From positions 1,178,001-1,242,000 of the forward strand of contig JADQAV010000015.1 of the NCBI GenBank assembly GCA_019775845.1: a stretch of 64,000 nt of DNA. The letters run 5' to 3'. The position numbers were made by a program, and so were the translations under genes. The notes beneath the pieces were generated by a model. That model made no database searches and had not been told where the DNA came from. It worked only from the letters and a program-made list of their open reading frames with translations. How positions within the stretch are numbered: position 1 is the first letter of the stretch; every line of letters begins with the position of its first letter. The DNA is from Myrmaecium sp. VS I D KN 1 (taxonomy: Eukaryota > Ascomycota > Dothideomycetes > Valsariales > Valsariaceae). This document shows, piece by piece, positions 31,454 to 60,700 of this stretch.

Positions 31454-33529
31454 ATGCCTTCCACCGTCCTCGGGAAGAGAACTCGCGGCTCCGCCAACAC
31501 GCCCGGTAAACAATGCCCGACGACTCAGTCCCGCAGCCGGAAGCAGCGACTGACAGCCACATTAGCAGACTCACCCAGCTCCGTAACGACCCGGGCAGCC
31601 AAGCGACGCTCGCAATTCGTCGTGCTCGACAACAGCGAACAGGAGAACCCGTTCATCACGCGTCGGACCCCCAAACCTGCCTCGGTCCAGCATGGCGAGC
31701 ACACGGAGAAGGATGAATTGGCGGAGCAGTCGCCCATCATTCGGAGGAGCAAGTCACTCCGGTCCGCCGCGTCCGCATCGGCTTCACCGGCCGCCTCCAG
31801 GGCCGTTCTTTCCCCCGCCAAGATCAACGGCCACTTCCGCGCGAGCAAGCCTGTTCCGGCCCCGGATGCGAAGCCGCAGGTGTCGACTCCTCAGACGCCC
31901 AGGCATCGAGACGCCCTAGCCACCGTCGCCGTCACTCCTCGCCATCGTGTCATCGTCGCCGGGAAGCCGCTGACCCCGCGTACCCCCCGCACCCCGGCCA
32001 CCCCGCGTACCGCCGGCCCCTCCGTCTTCACCGACGCCCGTCAGCTCTTCACCCGCGGCGCCGCCCCGACCGCCCTCTTCGGTCGGGACAACGAGCGGAA
32101 GGAGCTCGCCGACTTCGTCTCCAGCCGCATTGGATCCCACCGGTCCGGCTCCATCTACGTCTCCGGTCCGCCAGGCACGGGCAAGAGTGCGTTCGTGGCC
32201 GAGACCGTCCGGGCCTTCGAAGACGACGACCAGGTGAAGAGGGCGTACATCAACTGCATGAGCGCCCAGAGCGAGAACGACGTCTACGTCCGACTCCTCG
32301 ACGAACTCACCGAAGAGGAGGTGCTCGTCGGCGACGAGATGGAGGTGCTCAAGAAGATGTTTATGCGTCGGGACTGCACCTACCTGGTCACCCTGGACGA
32401 GATCGACCACCTCCTGGAACTGGACCTCGAGCTCCTCTACAGTCTCTTCGAATGGTCTCTCATGCCTCGTTCCAGCCTCGTCCTCATCGGCATCGCCAAC
32501 GCCCTCGACTTCACCGATCGATTCCTCCCTCGCCTCAAGACGCGCGGTCTGAAACCGCACCTTCTCCCCTTCCTCCCGTACACCGCCGCTCAGATCGCCT
32601 CCGTGGTTACCTCCAAACTCCAAAGCCTTCTGCCCTCCACCGCCGCCAACCCGAAACACGTCCCCTTCATCCATCCCACCGCCATCCTCTTCCTCGCCAA
32701 GAAAGTCGCCTCGCACAGCGGCGATCTCCGCAAGACCTTCGACATCTGCCGTCGCGCCATCGACCTGATCGAGGCGGAAACCCGCGACAAGTACAACAAA
32801 GCAGCCGCGACCACCGAAATCACCCCGTCTCCCACGCCGAGTCCCACCAAAACCCCTCTGATCGAGAACATGAACCTCTCCTCGCCCACCAAGAAAGCCG
32901 GCGCCACCCCCTTGAAACCCCAGCAACAGCAGCAGCAGCAACCTCACCCCCCTTCGGATCCCCTCGCCACCCTCACCCCCGAGACGGCTCCCCGCGCCTC
33001 CATCGCCCACATGGCACGCATCACCGCCACCGTCTTCAGCAACGGCACCGCCCAACGTCTCGGCGCCCTCAACCTCCAACAAAAAGCCGTCCTCTGCGCC
33101 CTCGCCGCGCTCGAACAGAAGAAACGCACCGCCGCCGCCATCACCAGCCAACCCCCCTCATCCTCCTCCTTCCCCGGCACGCCCTCCAAGCACGCCGCCG
33201 CCGCCCCCACGATCCGTGAAATCTACGACGCCTACGCCACCCTCTGCACCCGCGACCACGCCCTGCACCCCCTCACCCCGACTGAGTTCCGCGACGTGGT
33301 CGGTAGCTTGGAGACGCTGAGCTTGCTTTCGGCGGTGGACGGGGGTGCTGGCCGCCTCGTTCAGATGGCGACCACGCCGAGCAAGCGCGGTCGCGGCGGC
33401 TTTGGCGTGCATGTCGTGGATGCTCGGCGCATTGCGAGTGTGGTTGGTGTGCACGAGTTGGTGGCGGCGTTGACGGGACCGGGGAGTGCGCTGTTGAAGG
33501 GGTGTTTGGTTGAGGAGGGGGTTTTGTAG
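31454..33529 (+). CDS. CDC6: DNA replication licensing factor Cdc6/Cdc18
   Basis: AAA+ ATPase that joins ORC at origins and loads MCM2-7 in G1, in the nucleus. Single exon, 691 residues. The N-terminus is basic with many CDK-type sites (LTPRTPRTPATPRT, STPQTPRHR, ADSPSS), fitting cell-cycle-controlled degradation. The AAA+ core begins with ALFGRDNERKEL; Walker A GPPGTGKSAF is near residue 238, Walker B is TLVLTLDEID-like (YLVTLDEIDHLL), and the sensor region is LVLIGIANALDFTDRFLPRL. HSGDLRKTFDICRRAIDL follows. A Gln-rich insert (around residue 490) separates the core from the winged-helix end (LGALNLQQKAVLCALAAL, then LTPTEFRDVVGSLETLSLL). The start is ATG 31454 (MPSTVLGKRTRGS); upstream codons lack family character. 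Confidence 0.93.
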   Translation: MPSTVLGKRTRGSANTPGKQCPTTQSRSRKQRLTATLADSPSSVTTRAAKRRSQFVVLDNSEQENPFITRRTPKPASVQHGEHTEKDELAEQSPIIRRSKSLRSAASASASPAASRAVLSPAKINGHFRASKPVPAPDAKPQVSTPQTPRHRDALATVAVTPRHRVIVAGKPLTPRTPRTPATPRTAGPSVFTDARQLFTRGAAPTALFGRDNERKELADFVSSRIGSHRSGSIYVSGPPGTGKSAFVAETVRAFEDDDQVKRAYINCMSAQSENDVYVRLLDELTEEEVLVGDEMEVLKKMFMRRDCTYLVTLDEIDHLLELDLELLYSLFEWSLMPRSSLVLIGIANALDFTDRFLPRLKTRGLKPHLLPFLPYTAAQIASVVTSKLQSLLPSTAANPKHVPFIHPTAILFLAKKVASHSGDLRKTFDICRRAIDLIEAETRDKYNKAAATTEITPSPTPSPTKTPLIENMNLSSPTKKAGATPLKPQQQQQQQPHPPSDPLATLTPETAPRASIAHMARITATVFSNGTAQRLGALNLQQKAVLCALAALEQKKRTAAAITSQPPSSSSFPGTPSKHAAAAPTIREIYDAYATLCTRDHALHPLTPTEFRDVVGSLETLSLLSAVDGGAGRLVQMATTPSKRGRGGFGVHVVDARRIASVVGVHELVAALTGPGSALLKGCLVEEGVL

Positions 33530-35280: not shown

Positions 35281-35586
35281 GATGACGGTTGTGTGAAGGG
35301 TATCTGGAGTGTACGAGGGAGAACGGAAGAAGAAGGGCGAGGCGGTGATGTATGTAGGTATTGTTGGATAGCTAGGTAGCTAGGTAGTCGTAGGTGAGGT
35401 AGGTGCCTGAGGTCAGCTCCCCATCGGCGGTTGCAGATAATCCGAATGCCGATGACCCCGGAATGCCTCGCCCAATTTTTTTGTGGAACGGCCATACCTG
35501 CTTTCAAAGGCCCTCAACAGTGCTCACTTGCTCAGCGAACGATCCGACGCTCGTTCCCCAGGATCTCATAGCTGCATCCCGGCGCT
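35281..35586. promoter_or_regulatory. compact divergent promoter PRE1 / RRP9
   Basis: 306 bp separate the PRE1 start (-) from the RRP9 start (+). It contains repeated TAGGTAG-like sequence (35355-35405). I do not see a clear PACE-like proteasome element. Confidence 0.6.
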
Positions 35587-37401
35587 ATGTCCTCGTTCTT
35601 CACCACGCCAGCGTCGCAGCGTAAGAGGAAGCGACCGGAAGCCGCCTCCGCGGATGCTGGAACCAAAAAACGGAACACCGCCGGCGGCGCCGCATCGAGA
35701 GCGCAGAATGGCTCACGGGCGAGAAAAGAGAGGGAGGATTCCATAAGCAGTGGCGAATCGGAGGATGAGGATGCCAGGGTGGAGGATCCCATGCAAGAGG
35801 AGGAGGAAAGCTCGGGCGACGAGGACGAGACGGCCGCCGAGCGTCGATTGAAGCTCGCTGAACGATACCTGCAGAACATCCGCGAGGAAGTTGACGAGGC
35901 GGGTTTCGACGCCGCCGAGATCGACCGGGACCTCATCGCGGAGCGGCTGAAGGAGGACGTGGCGGAGGGCAAGGGCAAGATCTACCGGCACATCGCCGCC
36001 GACCTCGACTTCGAGAACGCGACGCAGTGCTTCTTCCGCGCGGACCAGCAGGCCGTCACCGGCGTCGCCACGTGCGACCCGTACGCGTACACGGTGTCCA
36101 AGGACATGAGCATCATCAAGTGGGAGCTGGCGGTGCCGCCGCATGCGGCCGCACCGGAGGACGGACCCCGACCGACCAACATCTCGCCCCGTCGGAAACC
36201 CAAGAAGTTGGCGTGGGTGCGTGGGAACCGCCACCGCAGCCAGGATCCTAAGTACGTCGGCCATGTCGGACCCATCCTCTGCGTGGCCGCGAGCGAGGAC
36301 GGCAAGTTCGTGGCGACCGGCGGCGCGGACAATCGGCTCGTGATCTGGAATTCCGAAGGAACGGGTTTGAAAGCGATTAAGGTCTTCTACCAACACCGTG
36401 GTGCCGTGACCGCCTTGGCTTTCCGGAGGGGCACCAACCAGCTCTTTAGCGCAAGCACGGATCGGACGGTCAAGACGTGGAGCTTGAACGAGCTGGGCTA
36501 CGTGGAGACGCTGTTCGGCCACCAGGATAGCGTGGTGGACGTGGCCGCGCTTGGGGAGGAGAAGTGCGTGAGTGTGGGCTCGCGCGACCGAACGGCACGG
36601 CTGTGGAAGGTGGTGGAGGAGAGCCAGCTGGTGTTCCGCGGCGGAGGGGTGGCGAAGAGCAGCAAGAAGGAGCGGGGAAGCAAGGACAAGGCGCAGCACA
36701 CGCAGGGGGAAACGGAGGGGGAGGAGCTGCGCTACGCGGAGGGCTCGATCGACTGCATCACCCAGCTCTCCCACACCACCTTCCTGACCGGCTCCGACAA
36801 CGGCTCCCTCTCGCTCTGGTCGGCGCACAAGAAGAAGCCGCTGACGGCGGTGCCGGTCGCGCACGGCACCGACCCGCCGCCCCGGCCCGAGGACCTCTCC
36901 GCCGACGCGGACGCCTGCGCCAAGTACGAACGCGGCGAGCTGCGCCGAGGCGACCCCCAGCCCCGCTGGATCACCGCCCTCGCCGGCGTCCCCTTCACCG
37001 ACCTCGCCGTTAGCACCTCCTGGGATGGCTGGGTGAGGGTGTGGCGGGTCGACGAGACGGGCCGCGGCGCGCTCGAGCCCGTTGGCGTGGTCGGCCGGTT
37101 GCCGTTACCGCCCGTGCGGGCGGAGGAGAAAAAGGAGGATGGAGCGGCTGACCGGGACGACGAGAAACCTAGGGGCCCTGTGCGCGGCGTCATTAATGAC
37201 GTCGCTGTCTTTGAGCGCGGCGACCGCGGCCGGCATGGCCTCTGCGTTGTTGTCGCTGTGGGCACTGAACACCGTCTTGGTCGCTGGGTCCGTCGCCCGG
37301 ATGGCCGCAATGGCGCTGTTGTTTTTGAGGTCCCGCGCAAGCGTGATGCGAAGGATGTTGATGATTCGGAGGCTGAGGGTGAGGGGGAGGGGGAGGAATG
37401 A
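35587..37401 (+). CDS. RRP9: U3 snoRNP protein Rrp9 (U3-55K), WD40 repeats
   Basis: WD40 protein of the U3 snoRNP, needed for 18S pre-rRNA processing in the nucleolus. Single exon, 604 residues. The N-terminus is basic and acidic (RKRKRPEAASADAGTKKR, then EDEDARVEDPMQEEEESSGD). It is followed by the family signature AERRLKLAERYLQNIREEVD, EIDRDLIAERLKEDVAE and GKIYRHIAADLDF. Seven or so WD repeats follow: AVTGVATCDPYAYTVSKDMS with IIKWEL; GHVGPILCVAASEDGKFVAT with DNRLVIWN; HRGAVTALAFRRG with STDRTVKTW; GHQDSVVDVAALGEEKCVSV with RDRTARLWKV; IDCITQLSHTTFLTGSDNG with LSLWSAHKKKP; WITALAGVPFTDLAVSTSWD with WVRVW; and a last one before HRLGRWVRR. An Arg/Lys/Gln-rich insert sits between repeats 4 and 5. 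Confidence 0.93.
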   Translation: MSSFFTTPASQRKRKRPEAASADAGTKKRNTAGGAASRAQNGSRARKEREDSISSGESEDEDARVEDPMQEEEESSGDEDETAAERRLKLAERYLQNIREEVDEAGFDAAEIDRDLIAERLKEDVAEGKGKIYRHIAADLDFENATQCFFRADQQAVTGVATCDPYAYTVSKDMSIIKWELAVPPHAAAPEDGPRPTNISPRRKPKKLAWVRGNRHRSQDPKYVGHVGPILCVAASEDGKFVATGGADNRLVIWNSEGTGLKAIKVFYQHRGAVTALAFRRGTNQLFSASTDRTVKTWSLNELGYVETLFGHQDSVVDVAALGEEKCVSVGSRDRTARLWKVVEESQLVFRGGGVAKSSKKERGSKDKAQHTQGETEGEELRYAEGSIDCITQLSHTTFLTGSDNGSLSLWSAHKKKPLTAVPVAHGTDPPPRPEDLSADADACAKYERGELRRGDPQPRWITALAGVPFTDLAVSTSWDGWVRVWRVDETGRGALEPVGVVGRLPLPPVRAEEKKEDGAADRDDEKPRGPVRGVINDVAVFERGDRGRHGLCVVVAVGTEHRLGRWVRRPDGRNGAVVFEVPRKRDAKDVDDSEAEGEGEGEE

Positions 37402-38002: not shown

Positions 38003-39394
38003 TCACGAGGCCGAACCGACAATCTCTCTCCGCCAGGAAAGTCCCTCGAGCCACTCCTTCGCATCCCGGCTGAAGCAGAGCGGGGCATCGAAGCGCTTCA
38101 GGCCGGGCTCGCTGAGGATGGCCAGGGCGGCGAGGCCGAGGTAGCTGTGGTAGATATCCGGGGGGTCGCCGGGAAGCTTGCCGAAGCCGCCGACGAGGTG
38201 CTGGGTGCGGTCGAGGAGGTAGCGGCGGGCGGCGGGCCCGTCGACGACGGCAGTGGCGGTTTGGCCGAGTGCGTCGAGGGAGCCGAGCGTCCAGAAGGCG
38301 TAGCAGGTGTCGGCGATCTTGTTGCACCGGCCGTTGAAGCCGGCCCAGCGGAGGGCGAAGCGGGAGGTCGGCGCGGCGGCGATGGAGGCCTTGGCGTTGG
38401 CGGAGAGGGGTGCGGAGGGGGCGACGAAGGTGTGGGCGTCGTGGCAGGTGGCGGGGGTGTCGGTCTCGTCGGAGGCGGTGTCGAAGGAGTCGTCGGCGGA
38501 GAGGGTGGCGGTTTGGCGGCTGGCGAGCCAGTGGAGGGTGAGGGAGGGGTTTTGGAGCGCGGTCAGCTTGCGAGCTTGTTCGTCCCGCGGTTTGCGGCAG
38601 AAGGGAGGTGGGAGGCGGTCGATGAAGGAGAGGAGGCTAAGGGCGCAATAGGTGTAGCCGGCGTGCGGCTCGTGATAGGGTGCTTCTGATATACCACCGT
38701 CGTAGGTCTAGGGTTTCAGGGTTAGCCATTGGACGGTAGTCACCGGGTGACGCCTGGAACAGACCTCCGAGCTTCTGACACATCGCACCAGACCGTCCAC
38801 GTCGATGTCCGGCACGCCGTCCACCGGCCCTTCCACGTCTCCTCGCAGCATCCACCGGATCGCCGTCGCGCAGTACCCGAAGCGCGGGTCCTGTCCCCCT
38901 TCGATCTTGCCATGCTCGCCCAGGGTCTCGCCGAAGCTGCCGTCCGGCCGTTGCATCCGCGTCAGCCAGCGGAGACAGTCTTTCCTCCTCACCCGGCCCA
39001 AATCGTCGCCCAGGATGACCAGGATGGAGAGGGCGAAGTAGGTCGCGGGTACGCTGGCCGGATCCCATGCCTGATTGTGCTCGTTGGCGCGCTCGCCCAG
39101 GTCGGTCGCGGGGGCGCCCCGGAAGCCGCCGGCAGGGTGCTGGCAACGGTAGACCCAGTCGACGTAGCCCTCGCGCTCGTCGGCGGTGGTGCCGGTGTGA
39201 AGGGCGTCCAGCACGTCCAGGGCGGAGACGATGAAGAAGGCCAGCATCATGCGGTTCAGGTCGTTGGAGGTGTAGTAGGTGGGCAGGTAGGTCTTCAAGC
39301 AGCGTTTCCAGTAGGTGACATGCTTGGCCGTCTTCAGCTTACTCTCGTCGCCGGCGACGGGAGGCAGGGCGGGGGAGGGGTCGGTCGAGGTCAT
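38003..39394 (-). CDS. CDC43: geranylgeranyltransferase type I beta subunit (Cdc43)
   Basis: Beta subunit of GGTase-I, which attaches geranylgeranyl to CAAX proteins such as Rho1 and Cdc42 in the cytosol. 444 residues from two exons, 38765-39394 and 38003-38707. The 57-bp intron has an uncommon donor, GTCTGT, branch GCTAACC and acceptor CCCTAG. Exon 1 has YWKRCLKTYLPTYYTSNDLN, YVDWVYRCQHPAGGFRGAP, SVPATYFALSILVILGDDL and CLRWLTRMQRPDGSFGE. Exon 2 starts TYDGGISEAPYHEPHAGYTY and contains the zinc ligands Asp and Cys in NKIADTCYAFWTLGSL and the His in DIYHSYLGLAALAIL. Length and motifs are normal. It is divergent from an F-BAR/RhoGAP gene. Confidence 0.92.
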
Positions 39395-40491
39395 GAGGGA
39401 GGAGGAGGTCGAGGATGAGGATGTACTCGAGGTACTCGATGTACGACGGTACTGTTATTGAGGTGGATGAGGCAGGCCGGGAAGTTCATGTGTTCACAGT
39501 ACGATGGCCATGCCGCCGCGTCGGAGGAGAAGATGAGTAGTCGTAGGTAAAAAGTAGGTAAATTAAGGGAGTCGGGTAAAGGTGGGCATGCAGTGTTCTT
39601 CCCCCGGCGCTGGACGATGACGGGGACACTTTTGGGTCGGATCGTCCCCCCAACGGCCTCCACCGAAAGTCCCTGGGCCGCTGTGCTACAATAATAGTAG
39701 TTCATCTACAACGCCCGTACATACAGTAAGTATGTTTTACATACATTGATATGTACTAGGTACCTAGTGAACATGATTACCATTTGATGACTACCTCGAA
39801 ATAATGACTCGGATATTCTTTTCTGATACTTATGGTAATTACTCAACCGGTACCAGTAAATATCGAACCTTTGGAATGATACGCGATTGCGTGCCGATGG
39901 CTCCGATGCCTTAAGGCCGGCCCCGACGTGCAAGGGCCACCCCGGATTCGCCGAACCTGAAACGCGCAAACTCGCGCCAAGTGCTGTCAAACGGGGACTT
40001 TTTCAGGTGTTCAGGTGTCCAGGCGCCCAGGCATCCCACTAACCTGCATCCTTCCCATTGTCCACCTGCGCCCCGTCCCCGTTCCCTTCAGCCCTCCCCG
40101 ATCCTCTCGCGACACCAAACCACCTGCCCTCCTGCTGCTGTTCTGCTTCCGCTGCACTGCTGACCCTTGAACGGTCTTGTCCTCCCTCCTCGCGGCCCTC
40201 TCTCTCTCCTTTCCTCTCGCAACATCGCCGCCCACGGCCGCTCCTCCGCACGACCTCCCCCCAGCTCTTTACGAAGTTTACGACTGCTTTCGCTAGCCGC
40301 TCTCTTATAGCCCAGCCCCTTCACCACTCCGGTTTCAGTCGCACCTCGTCTTCTGGTTCCTCATCGGCTTGTTTCACAGCTGGTGTCTTCGACGACCTTC
40401 CACGACACCGACATCTACCGTATAACCTGCCATCGATCTTCACCCTGGGGCAACATCTCGTATAGACTCAGTACCGCGACGCCTCGGCAAC
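39395..40491. promoter_or_regulatory. divergent promoter region CDC43 / F-BAR RhoGAP gene
   Basis: 1.1 kb shared upstream region: AT-rich core around 39700-39860, CT-rich leader toward the + strand gene (40060-40490). Short repeats (GAGGTACTCGAGGTACTCGA near 39423, CAGGTGTTCAGGTGTCCAGG near 40004) are visible. No gene seen. Confidence 0.5.
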
Positions 40492-43400
40492 ATGTCCACT
40501 GCCGGCTTCGCCAACTCCTTCTGGTCCAGCGACTACGCTGCTGGTGCGTGACATGTCCCCTCCTGTCCGAGTCCTGCGGCACCTCACCCATGCTGACCCG
40601 TCCCGTCTACCAGGCCTGGGTGTGTTGTTTGGAAAGCTCCAGCAAGGCGTCCAGGAGAACCAGCAGATCCTCACCATCGCCCGGATGCGTGCAGAGGCCG
40701 AGGAGCTGTACGGGCAACGGCTATCCGAAATTGGCCCCGCGACAGAGCGCATCGGCGGTGGCTTCCAAAGGGATGAAGGGGCGAGCGTGCGCAAGGTAAT
40801 TATACAACGTGCTGCAGCCTGCAAGCAGGGGCCGCGCTGCTGACACGGTCCACAACAGGCGTACGAGGGCGTGCGAAGCGAGATGCAGGAGGCGTCCAAG
40901 AACCATCGAAAGATTGCCGCGAACATCCGCGAGCTCGTCATCAACCCATTCAGTCGGTGGTGCGACCAGCATGCCGCCCGTATCCAAAACTCACAGGACG
41001 ATCTCCAGGCCAGGATCAAACTCCATGACAAGCAGCTCGAATCCGTTCGGAAACTCCGCAGCCAGTACTACAACAAATGCCGACTGGTCGAGGACCTCGA
41101 CGAGGAAGAGAAGCTGGCCTTCCAGGATCCCGAGGCCACTCACAGTCCGAAGGGCAAGAACATCCCCACCATTAAGATGTCCGAGCCGGACGATATCGAG
41201 GATGAGCCCATCGATCTCGGCGACGAGACGTACTCCCCCGAGCAGGTGAAGAAAATCCTGACGCATATGCTGGAGAACATCAGGCTAGGTGAAACGAAGG
41301 TTCCGATCCTGGGCGTGTATCAAAATGTGTCGACGGGCGCAGATATTACGGATTACATTCAGAAGCACATGAATGCTACTAGCGTCGCATACGCGGAGCG
41401 GATCGGGCAAGATATGGTAGACCATGGGTTTTTACGTTTAGTGGGCAACGTAGGGAGCACATTTGCGAATAGCTCGCGCATGAACTACCAATGGAGACCC
41501 AAAGTTTTCCAGATCACGGGAATTCCGGAGAAGAAGAAGCCTCTGGAGCGCATGTCCACGGGCATGTCCGCCAGCAGCTTGGCCTCCACCGATTCACCGG
41601 TTGGAACCGTTACGGAATACCTCGCAGGCTGGAACCCGCTCAACAATCCGTACCCGAACGAGACACCCGCGGAGAAGCTTCGACGAGAAGCTCGGGAGGC
41701 CGACGAGCGGTACAAGGCGGCCGTGCGGAAGCTAGATTCGCTGCGCTGCAATTTGGAGGAAGCCATGATGGACCACCTGAAGTTCATGGAGCGATGTGAA
41801 CTGGACCGCCTGAAGGCCATCAAGGCCGTCATCCTGGACTTCTCTGGCGCCATCAGCAACGTCATCCCGAGCCTGCAGAGCGGCGTGGACAACATGATGC
41901 TTTTCCAGGAGACGATCCAACCGCTGGGCGACGTTCGCTACCTCTTGGAAAACTACCGAACGGGCCAGTTCGTGCCTAGAGTCACGACTTATGAGAACTA
42001 CTACAATTCCGTTGATGGTATGAACGCGCTCCTCGCATGTGTCTGACGCATTATATCTTACGCTGCATACAGAGCAAACGTTCGGTGTCGATCTCGAAGC
42101 ACGAGCCCGCGCTGATCGCAAGCGTGTTCCGATCATCATCACTACCATCTTGACCTATCTTGACAGCCGTAAGTCACCACCGGACCTCACTCAATGCGAT
42201 CCTGAGTCTGACCGGTCTTCAGATTACCCTGATCTGGAAGGCGACGAGGTGCGCCGTGGCATCTGGCTCGTGGACGTGCCGCTCGCGTCCACGCACAGCT
42301 TACGAAATGCGATCAACACCGGGAAACCCGTTCCTACCGAAATCCTTGACAAATATGAGATACCCATTGTTGCTAGCGTTCTGAAATTATATCTTCTGGA
42401 GCTTCCAGGTAAGTTCATCCGGAAATCGTGCGGTTGCGTCGAAAGCTAATATCCATCTTGAAGACTCTCTTGTTTCTTCCCATGTGTACGAGATTGTGAA
42501 GACCATTTACAACAACCCTTCTACGAGCAGTGACCAGTCGGAATCCGCCCGGATCGCCGTCATCCAGAACACGCTTGGCCAGCTCCGCCTAGCAAACATC
42601 GCGACCTTAGACGCCATCACAACCCACTTTACCCGTCTGATCGAGCTCACTTCCGCTTCGGAAGAGTATGTCGCCGCTCTCGCCCAGAACCTGGCTCCAT
42701 GCATCCTGCGCCCGCGCCAGGAGAACAGCTTGACCATGAACGAGCGTTACTCTTACCGCCTGATCCGCGACCTCTTTGCCCACAAAGACGCCATCTTCGG
42801 CGAGCTCAAGCGGGCATCCTCTCTTTCGCACTCCACCTCTACCGGCGGCGGTCGTCCCCGAGCCATCAGCACAGACGAGTCCAACCGCCGCGCCAACATG
42901 GAGGAGCGCAACCGCGCCATCGCCGCCAACCGCTCCCGCGCGTCCAGCCCGGCTCCGGGGTCCGAGCGCCTCGCCCGCGTCGGCGGCACCGGCCACCGCC
43001 GCGACCGCAGCTCCGGCGGCCCGGAAACCCGCTTCCCCGTCTCCGTCTCGAGCCCGGCCCGCGAGGTCCACTCGCCCACCACCGAGCGCCGCACCACCCT
43101 CACCCGCCACTCCCTCGAAGTCCCCGGCTCGGCCGACGGCTCCCCGGTGGCGACGTCGTCGTCGACGACGACCGCCACCACGAACGGCACCTCCGCGACC
43201 ACGAATGGTTCCGTGGAGGAGGCGCTGCAGCACCTCGAGAAGCGCAATTCCCTCGGGCGCTCGGGGCCGGGCCGGTTCCCGCGCAAGCCGGCGGGGGGGC
43301 TGGCGCGTCAGAGCTTGGTTAGCCAGCGGGACAGCGTGGGCTCTGGCTCCGGGTCTGGGTCTGGGTCCGGCGTGGGCAGCGTGCGGGATAGCGTGGGCAG

Positions 43401-43527: not shown

Positions 43528-44695
43528 TTGATTGACGGGGGTCTTCTATTTTGTTCTTTCCTGTTTTTTACCCAAGTTGGTGTTGGCTTGTTGGGACAGA
43601 GAGGTGTGCGATGTGGGTTTTTTTTCTCCCCCTGTTGAGATACGAATGGAAAGATTTTCTTCTATATTGGTCACCATGTTTCTTTATTTTTTCTTTCCTT
43701 CCTGGGTGGATGGCGATGATTCAGTCTGTTTCGTTGATTAGGTTTTGTGGAAGGTAGGAGGAAAGGTGAAGGGCAAGAGGTGGAGGGATCTTTCTCTCTC
43801 TTGGTTTTCTGGGTGCTGTTCTGTAAGTTAACTATGCTGCGGCGCAGTGCGATGCGGTGTGGGAGCGGAAGTAGAGCAGGAGTGGCCGACGGACGGGAAG
43901 CAGCGGAAGATGGCATAGGATATACACCCATCTTTTAAAACACCGTAGTAGTGTACGGGTACTGCTACATCCTCCTCTTCTTCATCATGCTGGATTCGGG
44001 GTTCGATGCATTGTTATCTGCTGCTATTGCCCCGGTTATCGCTGCCGGCTGTGGGAGCGTGAGTTGGGGAGAGAGGGAGGGGAGTCAGCGGCTGCTTGGT
44101 TGATTGGGATGGTTCACGAACAAAAGAGCAATAAGGCAGCGGAACAAGAGCGCTAAGATGAGAGAGATGGATATTGGATTCAACTAGCTACCCCTCTGAT
44201 TTTTCCGAGTAAAAATAATGATAATAATAATCAACCAACCATCCCATGGCCCTCGAGATCCACCGATCGGATCCAAGGAGTTCGAATTGAATATGTCTGG
44301 GAGGCGAGAAAAAAGATAGTCCAGAGATGGGAATCAGCAGAGCATCACACAGCCGACATAACAGTCGGCCGCTTCAAAGGCCTCCTTGCGCAGAGCTGTG
44401 ATTCCTCAGCCTCATCTCCCGACGGTAAAGAAAAAAAGAGAAAAAAAATATCCAGGTTCCCACGAGGCGAGAGTCCGAATGGGAGATGAAAACTCGAAAC
44501 GTAGATTCGGTTGTAGATGGTGAAGTATATCGTCGAAAGAGATAAAGTTGAGATCAGAACGGTCCGAGAAGAGAAAGGATATCAAGACGGCGCGAGAGAG
44601 CGTGTTCTAAGCCTGGTCGGTTCGCACTGGCATACGGACGGAGCAGGACCTTCCCGAGGGAGGAGGCAGTACGCTTATGCCTTCGCGGTGGTGTC
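43528..44695. other. intergenic, no gene seen
   Basis: 3' flanks of the RhoGAP gene (+) and of the pheromone gene (-). T-rich just after the RhoGAP stop, AT-rich near 44210-44240 (ATAATAATAATAA). No credible open frame. Confidence 0.55.
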
Positions 44696-45196
44696 CTACT
44701 CCGCGACCGGCTCGGGGACGGGCTCCGGAGCCGCCTCGGGGGCGGGAGCAGGCGCAGGCGCAGGAGCAGCCTTGCGCTTGCAAATCTGACCGGGGAGGTA
44801 ACAGAAGCGGGTCCGCTTGGGCTCCTTCGCGACGGGCTCAGGGGCGGGCGCCGGGGCGGGTGCCGGAGCGGGCGCCGGCTCTGGGGAACGCTTGCAGATC
44901 TGACCGGGGAGGTAACAGAAGCGGGTCCGCTTGGGCTCCTTCGCGACGGGCTCGGGAGCGGGGGCCGGGGCGGGCGCCGGCTCCGGGGAACGCTTGCAGA
45001 TCTCGCCGGGCAGGGAGCAGAAGCGGCCCCTGGGCTCCGGGACCGGTTCGGGGACGGGGGCGGGCTCCGGAGCACGCTTGCAGATCTCGCCGGGCAGGGA
45101 GCAGAAACGGCCTCGGGCTTCCGGGGCCGGGTGAGGCATGGCGTTGACGGAAGTGATGGCCACGATGGCGGCGATGAGGAAGGCGTTGAGCTTCAT
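44696..45196 (-). CDS. alpha-factor-like mating pheromone precursor with two peptide types
   Basis: Secreted prepropheromone of 166 residues, single exon. Signal peptide MKLNAFLIAAIVAITSVNA (1-19). Four cysteine-bracketed nonapeptides follow, each closed by the Kex2 site KR: FCSLPGEIC at residues 31-39 and 59-67, both preceded by RGR, and FCYLPGQIC at 93-101 and 131-139, both preceded by KRTR. Spacers are Ala-Pro/Glu-Pro dipeptides, the kind trimmed by Ste13-like dipeptidyl peptidases. The pattern matches Pezizomycotina alpha-pheromones (WCxLPGQxC type in Aspergillus, from memory), but with Phe for Trp and two distinct cores. The first two units lack a dibasic site on their N-side. Homologues bind the Ste2-type receptor PreB of the opposite mating type. 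An upstream in-frame ATG exists, but the signal peptide fixes the start at 45194-45196. Confidence 0.93.
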   Translation of the reverse strand: MKLNAFLIAAIVAITSVNAMPHPAPEARGRFCSLPGEICKRAPEPAPVPEPVPEPRGRFCSLPGEICKRSPEPAPAPAPAPEPVAKEPKRTRFCYLPGQICKRSPEPAPAPAPAPAPAPEPVAKEPKRTRFCYLPGQICKRKAAPAPAPAPAPEAAPEPVPEPVAE

Positions 45197-46208
45197 GGTG
45201 ATGTTTGTAGCGAGCGGCTGATCTTGGAATGGACGAGTGAGACGGAGAAGGATGGGATGAGATAGCCTTTTATAGCGGCTGGTCGATGGCGAGGCCTTGG
45301 GTCCATAGCTAGAAATGGGTGTCAATAGAGACCGTGGTGATAACCATGTTAACCAAGAAACTCGGTCGCAGAGGCGAAAGATTCGATCTTGATAGGCCCC
45401 GTCGCCTGCGATGTCCAGATGAGGGTATCAATAGCATTGCCAGACAAGAGCTGGAACCACGAGATCTTGTCGCTTGTTTCTTTGTGGATGCCGCATATGG
45501 GTCTCAATAAGAAGTCAGGGGTCAACCCCACGAAGTGCTCAAACACAACGAATCTGTCATAGGCCGTGAGATAAACGTGCGAGCCACATGGTTTTTGACA
45601 GGGCGATACCCAATTTAGCAACGAAGATGCCTGACTCTGCGTGTGATCCCTTGTCGGCGGTTCACGGAGCCGTATGCCTGGACATTGTCCGCCCGTTTTC
45701 GTCGCTCTAGCGAAGATGCAGAGATGGAGAACAGAGTCAAGTGTAAAATATGGAGGGAGACATTTTGACGACGGGAAAAGAGTCTAGAATCAAGTGATAA
45801 TCACTGTTTTGAAGATGGAATGACCTTGTATTGAAAGAGATGAGGAGAGCTACGGAGTATCGAGTTCAGACAGAACAATTGCTTTATTAGGCTTTCATAT
45901 GGAGCTTGAGAGACTTGGAGAAGAACCGCCAGGTATATGCATCGATACCGAAGCGTATGGGATGTACAGTCTATAGTACGTAGCAGCTGCAAAGATGAAG
46001 ATGACCTTGAGGTTGTTCCCCACGATCTTCGTTATGTTGATAAGCTTGGCATCCAGGCACAAAGACCCTTGGACGGATGGTGAGGGTCAGGCAACAAGGC
46101 GTCGATGGGGTGGTGTTGATCTTATCTGATCCGGCGCGGAGGTCGTCAGAGCTCACCGTGTGAGCTGCGGGAGATCATGCTTGCCCTCCTAAGCACCTCA
46201 CCTACGCA
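45197..46208. other. intergenic with an unassigned minus-strand open frame
   Basis: Promoter of the pheromone gene (-) and of MSM1 (+). On the minus strand a stop-free frame of about 145 codons runs from 45783 to the stop at 45349-45351, just after a possible acceptor TTCTAG. It has no ATG at its head and reads HVYLTAYDRFVVFEHFVGL, then LLSGNAIDTLIWTSQ. It could join a short ATG-led frame that starts at 45992 through a 41-bp intron. I recognise no family, and frames this long can occur by chance. Confidence 0.3.
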
Positions 46209-48263
46209 ATGCGGCCTCGAGCGTTGAGGTCCGTCCTCTCTTCGCCGGGTCACATCCTACCCACCCTCTCTCGCTCGTTGCCATGGATATGCGCCTCCTG
46301 CAGGCTGCGCACCCCGACTTCCAGATCCTACTCTTCCGCACCTGCTAAACCATACTATATCACCACTCCAATCTTCTACGTCAATGCTGGTATGGACTGG
46401 ACCTACTCTATATTACCACATTCGCTGAAGTTGTGTTAGCTCCGCACATTGGACATCTTTACACCCTCGTGCTCGCCGACGTGTTGAAGCGATGGCAACT
46501 CCTCCAGGGCCATAGAGCGATCCTTTGCACCGGCACAGACGAGCATGGCATGAAGGTTGCTGCCGAGCCATGTGTACGGGATAATCGCATTCGGCCTGGC
46601 TGATATTGTGACAGATCCAACAAGCCGCTGCGAAAGCAAACAGAGAGCCCAAGGAATTCTGCGACCAGGGAGCGGAGGTCTTCAAGGTATGCCACACGAT
46701 TAGCTATATATGATTATGTCTAATGATTCACTTCCCTAGTCATTGGCAGCGCGGGCAGAAATCTTGAATGATCATTTCGTTCGAACCACTGAACCGGCCC
46801 ATCGGGACGCAGTGCAGTATGCATGGGTATGCTAATGTGCTGTCTTGAGCCTTGGACAATGACTTACGGGGGACTTAGTTCCTTCTGAAAGAACGAGGTT
46901 ATATATACGAGTCGAAGCACGAGGGATGGTATTCCGTCAGCGACGAGACGTTCTATCCTCAGTCGGGCGTCCATCTAATCCAAGAGCCGGCCACAGGTCG
47001 TAAGATCATGGTAAGATCTGTTGGCAAGCGTTTCACACGTTGCAGGGAATCATGGCTAACGCCCAGGTACAGGCTTCCATGGAGACGGGGAAAGAGGTAG
47101 AGTGGACGTCCGAGACCAACTATCACTTCCGGCTGTCCAGTTTCCGGGACCGGCTGCTGCAGTTCTACAGAGAAAACCCAGACTGGGTGCGGCCTCGGAA
47201 TCGCTTCAGCGAAGTGATCAGCATGGTCGAGGGCGGGCTGGAGGATCTTTCCATATCTCGTCCTCGTCAACGTTTGTCTTGGGGAATCCCTGTCCCAGAT
47301 GATGATACCCAAACCATCTACGTCTGGTTGGATGCGCTTCTGAATTACGTTACGAAAGCAGGATATCCATGGACGCCAGGTGAAGAACATGCCGGAGGCT
47401 GGCCGGCAGATGTGCACGTTATCGGGAAGGATATCACCCGCTTCCACTGTATCTACTGGCCAGCTATCCTGATGGCGTTGGACCTCCCGCTCCCTAAATC
47501 GATCATCGCACACGGACACTGGACCTTGGGCAATCAGAAAATGGCCAAATCAGTCGGGAACGTGGTGAATCCCTTCTTTGCATTGGACCGCTTCGGCGTG
47601 GATACGATACGCTTTTTCTTGGCGCACGATGGCATCGTCTCTCAGGATACGGACTACAGTAACTACCACATCATCACCAGGTACAAAAAGGCCTTGCAAG
47701 GCGGCATCGGCAACCTTGCCTCCAGGATCATGCGCGGAAAAGGCTGGAACGTACCAAAAGCCATCAAGAACGGCGAGCATATCCGCGGCGTTGTCCGTTC
47801 TGTACCCAGCGTCCGATCGCCCCCACCTATATACCACATGAAACAGAACATCATGGCAGTCGCACCCGCCTTCAAGGAGCACATGGATGCCGGGGACCCG
47901 GCGAACGCCGTGAAGGAGGTCATGGGGCTCATCTACGAGACCAACAAGTTCTTGCAGGAGCAGGAGCCGTGGACGCTGGTCAAACGGATCAAGGAGGACC
48001 CCAGCCAGGAAGGCGATTGGATGCCGCAAGTCGACGCGACCGTCTATGTCTGCGCCGAGGCGCTGCGGGTGGCGGGCATCCTGCTGCAGCCCTTCATGCC
48101 CACCAAGGCGGACCATTTGCTCAACTTCCTCGGCGTGGCGGAGGACCGGAGAGCGTTCGAGCATGCCACCTTTGGATCGGATGTCCAATACGGTGTCCCC
48201 ACCGTAGACGTTGGGAAGGGCCCAAAAGGTGTTCTGTTTCCGCCGCTGACGAGCGACTCGTGA
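46209..48263 (+). CDS. MSM1: mitochondrial methionyl-tRNA synthetase
   Basis: Class I aminoacyl-tRNA synthetase charging mitochondrial tRNA-Met. 592 residues from six exons: 46209-46389, 46440-46555, 46615-46686, 46740-46826, 46879-47010 and 47073-48263; introns 50-62 bp. The N-terminus is an Arg/Ser-rich presequence (MRPRALRSVLSSPGHILPTL, then RSYSSAPAKPYYITTPIFYV). The HIGH motif is APHIGHLYT at the start of exon 2; TGTDEHGMK follows. Exon 6 has NYHFRLSSFRDRLLQFY, LSWGIPVPDDDTQTIYVWLD, the KMSKS-type loop NQKMAKSVGNVV, and an anticodon-binding region with QEQEPWTLVK and LQPFMPTKADHLL. The second donor is GTTGCT, unusual. The last intron could end 6 nt earlier (CCCAG), adding two residues. 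MSM1 is convergent with MDM20. Confidence 0.92.
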
Positions 48264-48471: not shown

Positions 48472-51400
48472 TTACTTCAGCCTGACGCCCAACAAACCAT
48501 CCAAACTCTCTTCGTACGCCCGCCTGCACGTCGTCGCATATCCCAACACAGCCTCCTGCCCATACTGATCCATCAACAGCGCCCCGGTGTCGCCGTGCGA
48601 CAGCATTGCCAGCACGGGATTGCTTCCCTGCTGGCCAAGGTAGCCCTTCCAGCGGTCGGCAAGGGCGCGAATATCACCATACGTCTTCTCGACCGAGGCG
48701 GACAGCTCGTCGATCTGGTTCTTGGCGAAGAAGGCGCTCAGCCGCTGCTGCTGCGGCAGCAGCTGCTTCTGCTTCGCGAGCTGGCGGACCGTCTCGCAGA
48801 AGCGCCAGAGCGCGCGGAGGGCGTCGAGGGAGCCGAAGAAGGTCCGCAGCGTGGACGCATCGGGGATGTGGCTCGTGACGAAGGTCGGTTCGCTGAAGGG
48901 GGCGATCCCGGAGCTGACGCGCTTGACGGCGTCAAGCACTGACTTCAGGCGGGTGGTGATCTCGGTCTTGGAGATTTCTGCGGCTTGGGCGGCGGCGCTG
49001 GTCTCTGCCGCTCGTATGTAGCTCAGAAGGACGTATAGCGATACCCAGATCTCCTCGAGTTCGTCCGCTGCGGTGGATTTGGACAGCTTCTCGGCTGCGC
49101 CCTTGGCGAACGGAACAAAGCCGAGCGGGACCGTCTGCCGATCGAGGGAGAACCATACTTGCTCGATCACGGCGCCCAGCGCGATCCAGTGCTTGTCGGG
49201 CTCGGGACCACTGGCGATGAGCTCCTGGAAGGGTTGTGACTGTGCCGGCTCGAAGTTAAGCACGATCGAGTAATCGCGGCTATCGACGAGTTGCTCCTCC
49301 ATCCCAACTAGACATGTTATTAGCGGCAGCTCATCCAACATCAGCACTCTCCTGAGTTCGTCACCTACCAAAATCGTCAATGGCCTCATCGAGGATGGCC
49401 TGCCCCCGGAACCTCGCCATGCGCCGCCGTTCGAGGATAAAGATATGCTTGGCAAAGCTGTGATCAAGCGCTTCCTTCAGTCCTTGGATCTCTAACGCTT
49501 GATCATACTCGAAAGCCTTGAGGCGTGGACCGTGGTACGAGTGCAGCTTCCCGAGGCTTGCGGAGTACATGTCCACGGCTCTGGTTAATAGGTCCTGAGG
49601 GTCGAAGCCCGTCTGAGCCGACCGCTGCGGATGCAGGTAGGAAAGGTGGGTGAACATGATGTGAGACACGGTATCGTGAAGGACCTCCTTCGTCCGAAGG
49701 TAGGGGTAAAGCTGCAACCCCATCGAGCCAAGCCCGAGCTTGAGATGAAGTCGGATGGCTGTAGCTATTAACGGCCTCCCGTCCGTCTCCTCTTGGCCTT
49801 TGAGAACATCTGACATGATGAACCCAGCTTGCAGCAAGTAGCTGCATGCTTGAGAGGGCGAATCCGCACTCGAGCTGAGTTTGACGAGGCACACAACCGC
49901 CAAAACAGCAGCGTCGTTTGCCACGGATGTCTTCAGCTGCGAGCCCATCTTCGCGACGTTGACACAGCCTTGTAGGAATTTCTGAGAAGCCGTGTAGATC
50001 TCCGTTTTGGGTAAGCGAGAAATCTGTAGGAAGTAGTTGAGTTTCAACCGGTTGATCTCCGCTTGTATCCAGCCATTCCATGCAGCCTATGTAAAATATC
50101 AGCTCCACTACGTCTATTAGGAGAGGAGTAATCGGGACTGTCAACCTTCTCCGCGCTGTCAGCGGGGTAAATATCTTGTGTGACTTCGTTGCACGCCTCC
50201 ATGAAGCTTCGGCGACTTTCCACATCCAAGCTTTCGACGAAGTTCTTGATGTCCGTGAAACAGCTTGCCAGTTTACAATGGCTCCCAAAGTAAGAATTGC
50301 AATGGGATAGCAACGATGCCGCTTCTCCAGATTTATCTAAAGCAGAAAGCCTCAGGTTCGCCAAGCCAACCTCGCGTGTCAGCAGGCCTTTGTTTTTATA
50401 GGAGTCTATCAAGGACTTTGCCTTCTCAAAAATTCTAGGAACATCAGCTTTCGTGTGCATTATTGCAATTCAGTTGCATTGACTTACTCAGGATCGTTGA
50501 GCTGCTCTGCACTCCGAAGAAGGCAGTCCCAAACCTTCCAGTCCTTGACCTGGAAGACCTTCGAATACTCCTCCGGGTTCGTAGCCTCGCCTTCTGACTT
50601 TGCTTCCAGACCAGCCACTGCTTGATCCAAGGTTTCATAGGACCTCTGCCAAAGCTCCTTCCAGTTAGAGTTCTGCTGAAGAATGTCATACCGCAACCTA
50701 GTAAACTCGATCTTGTTGCTGTCCAAGATCGCCCGTATATGAGGGTTCTCGGAATCAAGGAAAGACAGCAGTTCAGCATAGCGGCCTTGACGCTGGAAGA
50801 GTTGGGTAAGAAGCCTGAATTCGCGAGCTGTGGCTATCGAGCCCTTCGAGCCCTGTCAGCAGATCAGTGAGATGTACATTGCCTCAAGCAGATGTGAAGG
50901 TTACCGGTTTGGAGTTCACTTGCTCCATTGCTTTGCATAACGAACGATAGGCAAGTTCGTCCTTCATCTTCCAGGTCGTTGCGGGCGAATTAGATGCCTT
51001 CAGTGTTTGCGCGGAAAGATGAGAAGCAACTATCCAGGCGAAATTGTATTTGAGCTCTTCAGGAGCCTCCCGTCTAAGCCTCGCCAGAGCCTTGAATCCT
51101 TAGTATGGCGCCCAAAAGTCGGTGGGGAAGATGGAGACAAGGGGGATACGATCTGAAATCTCCGCACTTGACTAAAGGGGACGGGAAATGATAGAAGCTG
51201 TAGAAACTACGCCACCGAAAAGAAATCAGACCAACTTACTGTTTGAGCATCTCCCCAGACACCGTGGTATACAGCAGTGTCAAAGAGAACCGAATAGAGC
51301 TCAATCACCTGCCGTCGAGGAGCGGTCTTGGCAGCTCTGTCCCAAAACCCGAGTGCAGGGGGTCCTAAGGAATCTATCAGGACGGTCTCTTGCCGTTTCA

Positions 51401-51729
51401 TCGTCCAGATGATATGATAGATGACCGCCAGAGCGCCTCCATCGGTAATGGGCGGCTGCCTCGCGCTGAGCGAGTCCAGGACCTTCCTGGCCGAGTCGAA
51501 GCTGTGCTCCCGCGCGAGCAGCTCCGCCCTCCACATCTGCGAACAAGTGCATGTCAGCCTCGCTCAGCAAAACAAGGGGGACTGCCGCGGGCATTATCGA
51601 TGTTGGTACCTGCAGATATGGGTCATTGGGATGTCTTTTCAGCCTCCGCTCACACTCCTTGGCGGCTTGCTTCGGGTTCCCCTGGACCGGGTCCATGACC
51701 TTCTGCAACTTTTCCATATTGAAGGCCAT
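48472..51729 (-). CDS. MDM20: NatB N-terminal acetyltransferase auxiliary subunit (Mdm20/NAA25-like)
   Basis: Auxiliary, ribosome-anchoring subunit of NatB; in yeast Mdm20 loss affects actin cables and mitochondrial inheritance. 936 residues from seven exons: 51610-51729, 51241-51536 (or 51240), 50905-51090, 50488-50852, 50146-50434, 49369-50086 and 48472-49307. All joins are in frame. The N-terminus is TPR-like: MEKLQKVMDPVQGNPKQAAK, ERRLKRHPNDPYLQ, MWRAELLAREHSFDSARKVL. Helical repeats continue (FRLLTQLFQRQGRYAELLSF, FTRLRYDILQQNSNWKELW). Family-like blocks later are NRLKLNYFLQISRLPK, LYPYLRTKEVLHDTVSHIMF and YSASLGKLHSYHGPRLKAFE. The intron 51091-51239 is the longest in the gene and uses an AAG acceptor; donor GTTGAC is used at 50145. 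I assign the family from these blocks and overall architecture; a search should confirm it. Confidence 0.72.
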
Positions 51730-52329
51730 TTTCAAGGACACCACTGGCGGACAAGCGAGGTATTCTAAAGATGGTGAACGTGTCCCAGAAAATCCTATGG
51801 ATGTGGGGTTCTTCCGCGGTTCCAACTATGATACGGTTGGTCGGTAGCAGCAGCAGCTCCTGACCGATGAGGTCGCGGTTCGGCTAGCATGTTGTAGCAC
51901 CACTTTTTCTACCCATCACGAAGGTCCGCATATAGCGAGCTTTGGAACTTGTAGGAAATCATTCCTAATGACGCGTACCTATCCTCTCTGCAATAGGCAA
52001 TGCGCATACCAAATTTGGCTAAAGTATTTTTTTCTATTTTTTCTTTCTGCTAGATTGACAAGTCAACATCAACGTTCTTTGGATTTTCTCCTGCGATGTT
52101 CTCTCCCACATCCCCAGTTCACTTGACCGTGGCTAGGTAATATCTTGGGTGACCTCCTCTTTCGTAACCTCGTAAATAATGTACATGATATGGTACAGGC
52201 CTGCGCGGTGGCGCAAGCAAGATAACTGCCCCCCTTCATCAACCACCGAGATCTCGAATCGATGTTCGCGCCGGAGTCAAGATCCACACCCACCTTTGAC
52301 CTCTGTCTTCTCGTTCCTCCTAGCTTCCT
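51730..52329. other. intergenic between tandem MDM20 and COX23
   Basis: Promoter of MDM20 and 3' flank of COX23, both on the minus strand. AT-rich around 51990-52070. No gene seen. Confidence 0.6.
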
Positions 52330-56494: not shown

Positions 56495-57792
56495 GGTTAC
56501 AGGCAGTTCGGCGCGGATGGATCTTCCGAGGGTTTTGGGCTGGCATCGCCGTGCTTATATACGGATCTCGAGTTGGCTGCTTTGGGAAGGGTTGCTGCGT
56601 TGGCATCAAATTGTTGCTTTTTCGTCTAGGTCGTGTACACCGGTTTAATCCTTAATTCCTGTTTGTTTCGTTGCTTTGGGTCCCGTGAAAAGTGTACGGT
56701 AAGAACTCGAAGTCTGGCGGTCACAGATGCATGACCAAGCAAAAAGGAAATGCTTCTGGAGAATGCGAGACGAGTGAATGATATTATGAGATACTCTCGT
56801 TACGAATCGTGAACAGTCGACTCTCTCATCCCAAGACTGCAGACGCTTGCCTCGTTTCCGTGTAGCGGAGTGAAATTAGTGGACGTGGACGTCTCTTTCT
56901 GCGTAAAGTCGAAGAGACTGATTTGGACGTAGACGAGGACGAGAGAAAGAGCATTGTGAGAACCAGCAAAGGCAAGGAAATGAAGGAGATGGACGAAATT
57001 GAAGTAGCATGGAGCGGTAGGTCTGGCGGATAGGTTGTCCGAAGCCAGTACATACATACGTACATGTACGTGTCGTTCAAGGTGGAGCGAGGAGCTACGG
57101 GACGGCGAGGCACTGAAGATGCTGGGTGAAGGAGTAGGTGGGTGGTGTGGCTGTTGGCCGGTGACGGCAAGGAAAGACGTTCAAGCTGTTATGTAGAGAC
57201 CGGAAGAGGCCGAGGGTAGCTGTTTAAATATGTCTGGTGGAGACGTTCTGCGACGGTGAGGTGGATCAGCGCTGTCAGACCAGCGAGTGGTGTAGTCGTG
57301 GTTGACGACCTGGCTAGTATTCCTAACCTGAGGCCCACTCCCCAGCGGCAGACGCTTACCTAATCGGAAGAGGGCGCTAAGGTCGGGTGGCATGGCCCGG
57401 ACGCGGACCCCGTCGTGCCCGTCCACCCGCCTCCATCTACTGGCAGGCCGGTACCGACCGACGACTCTGGTCCTCTGTACAGCGTCCAACGGGGAAAGGC
57501 TCTTCCTGCTTAGCTTGGGCGTCTCTACCTGACTGCCACTCACTCCATACCTCTACTTTGCACGGCTGCCCTACCTAACCGTGCCTTCATTACCGAACCG
57601 CCTAACCTCTAGCTTCCGCAAGACTCGCCCACCGACCGACCTTTCCGACTTCCCCGAACCTGCATCGCGCCTTCTCTCGGTAGAAAGGCATGTGGAGCGT
57701 GGTTTGCTCTCTTCCTTGACTCTCGTCAGCCGCTGCAGCGTCTGTCCGTCTCCCATCCTGTGGCGGTCGTTCTATCCCATATTTCGCCCTTC
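56495..57792. other. intergenic, with a possible minute spliced frame on the minus strand
   Basis: Between the dioxygenase 3' end and the RING gene promoter. On the minus strand, ATG 57392-57394 begins MPPDLSALFRL followed by donor GTAAGC. Joining to an acceptor TACTAG about 46 nt on gives a 51-residue frame (LAGLTALIHLTVAERLHQTY). All three frames are open there, so this is weak. CATACATACGTACATGTACG simple repeat near 57050. Confidence 0.35.
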
Positions 57793-60700
57793 ATGGACAC
57801 ACGACCTTCCCCGCCTCCTGCGTCCACCCGCCAGAAAACTCCTGGCTCGCCCAGCCTGCCTTCACAGCTCACCAGCGGTAGCAGCATGGCGTCGTCTTCG
57901 TCTAACCCTGGTGCCTCCGCGAAGAATGGCAGGTCCGGGAGCGTCTCGCGTCCCGGGACAGCAAAGGGCCCGGAAGACGACAAGGCCTGTCAACCTGCCA
58001 ACAAAGACGTGCTGAAGCAGAAATCCTCGCGCAAAATGGATGACACCGCCCGAGCAAACAAGAACGAAGAGGTGAGAATCACTCTGCTCCAGGACGCTGA
58101 TCGTGGTTGTACTAATGCTTGGTGGTTGCAGCTTCTCAAATCCATGAAGAACGACTTCGACAGCCTCCGTTCGCTAGTGACGTGCAAAATCTGCGACAGG
58201 CTTCTTTACGAACCATACATCATCTCTTGCGGCCACACATACTGCTATAGCGTATGCAAGATTTTACGAGTGCCCGCCAGGCGGACAAATGCTGACGCTA
58301 CCTGCAGTGCTTGTGTACGTGGTTCGTGAACAACAAGGCGAAGAAGACATGCCCCGACTGCCGGTCCGTAGTCGTCGAAAAGCCTGCACCAGCGTACCTG
58401 GTGAGGTCTTCAACCCTCCATAATCATTCAAAATTTACTGACGTTGCCCGTAGATTCGCGAGATGACGCTTCTGTTTATCAACCGAGCGGAGCTTTTGCC
58501 TCAAGGCGAAACGATGGAGCAGCACGCCAAATGGCAGAAAGAAGAGGCTGATATCGTGCAGCAGGATAAAAATAACAAAGATCCACGCACTGGGGGGCTG
58601 TTCAAAGGATCCTTTCAGCCACGCTCACATGCGCGTGCCATTCATGACGTTGAGGACAACGTTGACAGGTGTCCAATGTGTGGCTGGGAACTGGAAGAAG
58701 GCCAATGCAGCCGGTGTAACATCGTCTTCGATGAGGATGGTTATCCTATCGATGGCTTTGGGAATTTCAGTGATATGGATGAGATGTCGGAGCATGACAT
58801 GTCCAGCGAAGACCTTGACGGCGAACTAGAAATGGAGGATGACGAGTTCGCAATGGGTTGGGATGGCGAGTGGGGTGATCAGTTCATGGACGATGAAGCT
58901 GGTTATGCTGTGAGAAGGTGGCTTGCACATGGTGGCGGGCCGCCTGCGCCGTATCCTTTTGCCCGTCGACGAGCTGCCCATAGTGCCGCTGGCAGTAGGA
59001 GACGAGCGTACCCTGTCAGCTTGATGTCTGATGGGGCCACCGTCTCTGATGTTCTCACCGAGGAAACTGAGATGGACACCTTGGAAGAGGAAGACGAAGA
59101 CGAGCTCGACGAGGATTCGTTGATGGACGATTTTGTCGTAAATGACGAGGAAAGCGAGAGAGCATCGGAGAGATCGTCTTCAACCCCTTCGCAAACCCCT
59201 CAACCCTCAAGTAACTCTAGGACACAAAGGCTGCGGCGTGTGGTCGAATCCGAAGCTTCTTCAGTCGCCTCCCGCACTACGGACGAGGACGATGAAGAAG
59301 AGGGACCAGTCACCAACAGCCGTCGGCGGCAGCAGCTCCGAGCACGTGCTCTGCTGAGTCGCGCCAATGGTTCCTCCAACCGCACCGCGTCCTCGACATC
59401 TACGGATCTCTCGAATAGTAATGAACTCGACGAAGACACGCAGAACTTGCTACAAGAAGCTGGATGGTCGCCGCTTGGACATGACGGTCCGGACGATGGG
59501 ATGGAAGAGGACTACGAGAGTGATGGGGGAAGGACGACCGTTGGGTGGGAGCCGATTGCGAATTCCAATGACCGATCTCGAACCACTCGTTCTCTAACGG
59601 CTGCTGCAGATAGACTAAACGTCCATATCCGACCCCCCTCCCGGGCAGGCGGATCACGAATCGTTGATGGCTCACGCGGCCTGCGGAGGAGGAGTTCGGT
59701 TGTCTCAACTGTGCCAGCTGCGAATTATGGAGACGGTGATGCAGACGATGACGACTCAGAGATCGATCGGGATGGAAATACTAGTATGAATGGAGGTCCT
59801 TTACGGCCCCGCAGGTCCATCATACGTCTGCGGGGTGCTACTGCTACGCCAAACAATCGCTCAGTCTTTCGGGGTGCCGCCGTTGATCCTGTCGATGCCG
59901 ATACAGATGAGAATTCTGACGACACTTCCATCCAAAGTCCGCGACGTCGTCAAGTACGACGTGCGCGCCAGGAATATGATCCCCGTATCAGTTGGATGTT
60001 TGCACAACACCAGACCGATATCTTGGAGCTTTCCCGACAAGGAGCCCATGTTGACCTGCTAGAACAGCTTCGGTCGACTACGCCTATAGCGAGACCCCCA
60101 ACTACAAACAGAAACCGTCGTACTCCATTGTCATCACTGGCGAGCCCATTCTCTCCTCCTTTCCATGCTGCTAGCCCCGGGCCTAACCTCGCCGGCCAGC
60201 CAAGGTTGCGTACCCCATTCCAAGATAGCGGCAATCCTGGGTTCCGTCAAGCCAACGCCCCCATCTCTGAGCGTCCCCCAACATTGAATGGTCAAGCTGG
60301 TGGTTCTACCCACGACAACGTTTCCCAAAACCAAGTTTCCTCGCCAGGAAGAATTGTGAACCGAGCCTTGTCTGAGCAACTGGGTGGCAGTTCTCAGATC
60401 GCTGGGCCTTCTCAGGCTGACCTGATCGACCGTCCCATCAGTCGAGTCAGCAACCGTCCTCCTTCTGCAGCCGGTAGGCGCAGCTCGTTGGGCTACGGCA
60501 ATGGCGTGCAGTCTCCGTTGATGTCACCAGGCGTGGGTTTGAATTTTGCGGCTCGTACATTAGCTCAGACACAGCCACGGAATCCGTGGAACAACCCGTT
60601 CATGGGGCACCTCGTCCGACCTCGACCGTCAAGCCAACATCTCCGGGAACAGCCTTCTAATCAGACCATCCGCCCTCGAACTTCTCAGCGCCTTCGTAAC

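Follow-up and report, generated by a model that had tools for sequence, protein, structure and literature searches.

For Xylona heveae, the sequence RFCHLPGQGCSK has been put forward as the putative alpha pheromone (PMC6339444), and it closely resembles the cores described here, including the Phe. In Ceratocystidaceae, repeats within one gene are often similar but not always identical, with up to five unlike peptides in one gene (Br. fagacearum), and individual genes carry KEX sites only, STE13 sites only, or both (PMC13037118). Among Sclerotiniaceae, WCGRPGQPC occurs in 31 of 36 species and additional unlike repeats occur in nine of the 36, while KEX and STE13 sites are both present in 104 typical Leotiomycetes precursors (PMC10569646). 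The Huntiella alpha-factor has 11-aa repeats such as NSNGGLPGELL, near-identical but unlike within the genus (PMC10182648). Finally, the laboratory map2 gene of S. pombe has four repeats that yield three peptides differing in activity, and mixed producers are slightly preferred as mates (PMC6342294).

We analyzed a precursor gene that encodes two different two-cysteine cores, located within a 64-kb stretch of DNA (hereafter the window). Compared with the systems above, this precursor is largely ordinary and is a further example of the documented mixed-repeat kind, and it contributes a compact case, with two copies of each of two cores, to the known precursors of ligand mixtures. Like X. heveae RFCHLPGQGCSK, it has an R-F-C-x-L-P-G-Q-x-C core in which Phe takes the place of Trp ahead of the first Cys; the variable positions carry different residues. 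It shares the two-cysteine P-G-Q core with Sclerotiniaceae WCGRPGQPC, which differs in having Trp where Phe stands here, and the Huntiella repeats share an LPGE stretch with one of the two types but are without the two cysteines. Like many Ceratocystidaceae genes, it would yield more than one kind of mature peptide, and like some of them it has both KEX and STE13 sites; like S. pombe P-factor it would give a mixture from four repeats, though the P-factor peptide is 23 aa long. A preliminary description of this locus had contrasted it with most ascomycete alpha-pheromone precursors, which were said to repeat one sequence; the published examples from Ceratocystidaceae, Sclerotiniaceae and S. pombe map2 weaken that contrast.

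The precursor and its repeat units

The precursor is encoded by an open reading frame of 501 nt and 166 aa without an intron (44696..45196, minus strand). Its N-terminus, MKLNAFLIAAIVAITSVNA, is hydrophobic and, judged by eye on the translation, resembles a signal peptide; we placed the putative cut by eye before MPHPAP, which assigns aa 1–19 to the signal peptide (45140..45196, minus strand). An accidental or broken frame was ruled out, as the whole 166-aa frame is coherent and open across all four repeat units.

The cores appear in the order 1-1-2-2, with two copies of FCSLPGEIC (type 1; 45080-45106 and 44996-45022, minus strand) followed by two copies of FCYLPGQIC (type 2; 44894-44920 and 44780-44806, minus strand), which confirms the two alpha-type peptides in two copies each that had been read from this sequence. 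Each of the four cores is directly followed by KR and contains the beta-turn dipeptide PG; GQ, the other dipeptide of this kind, is present in two cores, and the other two have GE. This is the arrangement of 9–14 aa repeated peptides each followed by KR, RR or KK, here KR at 4/4 cores. On the N-terminal side, the type 1 cores are preceded by EARGR and EPRGR and both type 2 cores by EPKRTR, such that R-x-R-F-C is common to all four copies.

Each core belongs to a longer unit on the minus strand. Unit 1 (45074..45139) reads MP HP AP EA, then RGRFCSLPGEIC and KR, and unit 2 (44990..45073) reads AP EP AP VP EP VP EP, then RGRFCSLPGEIC and KR. Unit 3 (44888..44989) consists of SP EP AP AP AP AP EP VA KEPKR followed by TRFCYLPGQIC and KR, and unit 4 (44774..44887) of SP EP, six AP, and EP VA KEPKR, again followed by TRFCYLPGQIC and KR. 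A spacer-like X-Pro/X-Ala run without a core forms the C-terminal tail (44699..44773, minus strand); it ends in VAE-stop where units 3 and 4 have VAKEPKR. At the DNA level, the repeat family comprises five 80-nt matches, 60–100% identical to the reference copy, of which two overlap at a distance of 12 bases, so that four units are represented, and these repeats run in register under the protein units. The pattern C...G[QE].C has four occurrences in the six-frame translation of the window, all within the precursor frame, whereas 50 mononucleotide-shuffled versions of the window averaged 0.58 occurrences. Together, the DNA repeat family and the shuffle comparison rule out repeats that arose by chance.

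The hydrophobic N-terminus, the X-P/X-A runs and the four cores that each end at a KR together agree with the alpha-factor precursor structure described in PMC10569646. Read from the sequence, the gene is very likely an ascomycete alpha-type mating pheromone precursor that would yield both peptides. The narrow alpha-pheromone consensus WC...G..CW, as quoted in PMC3068285, is absent from all four cores, in each of which the first Cys follows a Phe and the last is followed by a Lys; the published repeats RCGHPGQPCG and RFCHLPGQGCSK are likewise without the consensus Trp residues. No Pfam pheromone family model matched the precursor; the four families reported at E up to 10 were led by TonB polyproline at E 0.006, below that family's cut-off. 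A text search of a library of open-licence papers found neither exact core (FCSLPGEIC or FCYLPGQIC). The precursor had no related locus in prokaryote and virus contig collections, a result that is uninformative on fungi, and no loci were found there for the neighboring DEP-domain exon (both collections) or the methionyl-tRNA synthetase exon (viral collection).

Upstream of the precursor ATG, a TATAAA at -78 (45269..45274, minus strand) is a possible TATA box by consensus match. The pheromone-response elements TGAAACA and ATGAAAC are absent from both strands of the 1012 bases upstream of the ATG, and a single HMG-like AACAAT/ATTGTT site at -683 is uninformative. Antisense to the pheromone gene lies a 237-aa stop-to-stop open frame (44552-45265, plus strand), which is most likely an incidental product of the GC-rich repeat sequence.

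Predicted processing of the two peptide types

To read the processing sites, we used the rules given in PMC10569646, in which X-A/X-P units are Ste13 sites and KR, RR or KK are KEX1/2 sites, and we set the dipeptide phase from the presumed signal cut or from the preceding KR. In this phase, the residues before RG are X-P or X-A dipeptides throughout, 4/4 in unit 1 and 7/7 in unit 2, and the Ste13-type run abuts RGRFC in both type 1 units. In units 3 and 4, the dipeptides reach VA and KEPKR then intervenes, such that in both type 2 units the Ste13-type run precedes an extra KR (44927..44932 before copy 1 and 44813..44818 before copy 2, minus strand) and not the peptide itself. The N-side difference noted in the preliminary description, RGR without a dibasic site for type 1 versus KRTR for type 2, thus stands, and the type 1 arrangement has an ordinary reading because the Ste13-type run leads straight to RGRFC. 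The dipeptide phase gives modest evidence for the processing routes, since the phase of unit 1 depends on the by-eye signal cut and that of unit 2 would be correct with even chance.

It follows from these site rules that release of type 1 would take both Kex2 and Ste13, whereas Kex2 would suffice for type 2, a division of routes that we consider reasonably likely. The predicted type 1 peptide is then RGRFCSLPGEIC (45080..45115 and 44996..45031, minus strand) and the predicted type 2 peptide TRFCYLPGQIC (44894..44926 and 44780..44812, minus strand). Alternatively, type 1 might be cut at RGR (RxR) itself. Since the predicted peptides begin with RGR and TR, the Phe is probably internal and not the first residue. 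This bears on two earlier readings of the core: a peptide start at Phe does not fit predicted ends that lie upstream of it, and the Phe that had been called an uncommon initial residue in place of Trp has a precedent in X. heveae RFCHLPGQGCSK.

In the mechanism we propose, the precursor protein would enter the secretory pathway, where a Kex2-type protease would cut behind every KR, leaving the KR to be taken off by a Kex1-type carboxypeptidase. In units 1 and 2, a Ste13-type dipeptidyl aminopeptidase would trim the X-Pro/X-Ala dipeptides down to RGRFCSLPGEIC, while in units 3 and 4 the added EPKR site would allow Kex2 alone to expose TRFCYLPGQIC. Both peptides, with their two-cysteine Pro-Gly core, would most likely act as a mixture on the same Ste2-type receptor. 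If both peptides do act on one receptor with unequal strength, this would parallel the fission yeast P-factor in another ascomycete. The arrangement could also offer a clean test, as a single protein should give rise to one ligand that depends on Ste13-type trimming and another that does not.

Divergence of the units and alternative explanations

Units 3 and 4 share 96 of 102 aligned bases (94%) and differ in length by 12 bases; units 1 and 2 share 55 of 66 (83%). The four between-type pairs range from 71 to 81% base identity, with the pair of units 2 and 4 at 81%, and the tail matches unit 4 at 49 of 63 aligned bases. The coreless tail suggests the loss of a further unit, and with it a change in repeat number.

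We counted substitutions in all six pairs by the Nei-Gojobori method over 13 codons per unit around the core. Over these codons, two copies of the same type are separated by synonymous changes only, one for type 1 and two for type 2, whereas between types there are 3–6 synonymous and 4 nonsynonymous changes. Because the within-type changes are synonymous only and the between-type changes are of both kinds, the two core types would have diverged before the current copies of each were duplicated or homogenized. For type 1, this duplication history would be read from the core alone, with whole-unit identity between units 1 and 2 (83%) hardly above that between units 2 and 4 (81%). Very recent drift after unit duplication, which had been offered as one source of the two types, fits poorly with these counts, although neutral drift of greater age could account for them.

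A question within the pheromone interpretation is whether the second core has any function of its own. It may be that it has none, and that the units turn over by neutral birth and death, interchangeable on one receptor. A birth-and-death model, cited for Fusarium, is applied to the Ceratocystidaceae repeats in PMC13037118. A manual codon count gave 2 nonsynonymous versus 3 synonymous fixed differences between the cores of the two types, and binomial tests against a neutral share of 0.76 gave P = 0.09 (2/5), 0.22 (4/7) and 0.10 (4/8), in keeping with neutral change, with a fourth count at P = 0.016 (4/10) that points the other way but overlaps the other three; all four tests draw on overlapping counts from a single data set, and the pair 1b-2b (4/9) was not among them. 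We do not take these tests as evidence of constraint on both cores. Also against neutrality, F, C, L, P, G, I and C are constant across all four copies despite synonymous change. The whole-unit identities weakly back two separate lineages, and we therefore regard neutral, interchangeable units as evenly balanced between right and wrong, and the opposite case, in which the two peptides are dedicated signals, as unlikely.

In that opposite case, the two signals would differ in potency, protease stability or receptor, and their ratio would be set by Ste13 versus Kex2 activity. Processing context and peptide type do change together, in 2/2 copies of each type, and the S. pombe mixed producers described above, whose P-factor peptides differ in activity, were slightly favored as mates (PMC6342294). 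The assignment of one ligand type to each processing route is neat, but duplication of whole units would produce it in any case, and alone it does not argue for a function. A stronger version, in which one gene provides a dual-channel mating signal because the ratio of its two ligands reports the active protease, with type 1 needing dipeptidyl aminopeptidase and type 2 Kex2 alone, would be a bold reading of the predicted routes that we consider distinctly improbable.

Outside mating, the gene might encode a Kex2-processed repeat protein (KEP) with another role, such as a different secreted regulatory peptide. KEPs with Ste13-like signatures occur outside ascomycete mating, but the same source assigns the close X. 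heveae motif as that fungus's putative sexual pheromone (PMC6339444). The two-cysteine Pro-Gly core found here is moreover that of ascomycete alpha pheromones, and we consider a non-mating role very unlikely for the precursor. Least credible of all is that the repeat tract is an artefact of sequencing or assembly. GC-rich tandem repeats do tend to collapse or expand, but here all four units keep the frame open, and several linked changes, both synonymous and nonsynonymous, set the two types apart.

Neighboring genes in the window

The window looks fungal from its Rrp9 gene (35572-37398), whose best PDB match was 5oql_X at E 2.2e-158, with the next at 5.5e-85; we take 5oql to be a Chaetomium thermophilum structure, and on this match the DNA is probably that of a filamentous ascomycete. 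The window also contains other eukaryotic genes: Cdc6 (31181-33526), a protein like the beta subunit of geranylgeranyltransferase type I (38711-39454), a DEP-domain protein (40844-42043), presumably a RhoGAP, and a methionyl-tRNA synthetase (47004-48260). Neither ARAGORN nor Rfam at gathering scores gave any hit in the window. The Pfam scan covered the precursor and 10 of the window's longer open reading frames. A series of minus-strand frames at 48472-51825 may resemble the NatB subunit Mdm20/Naa25; Pfam gave no match at E 0.001 for the single piece of this series that was scanned (48475-49476, minus strand). A 996-aa frame (58454-61441, plus strand) was likewise without a Pfam match at E 0.001, and just upstream of it the frame at 57613-58329 has, by eye, a RING-like cysteine pattern.
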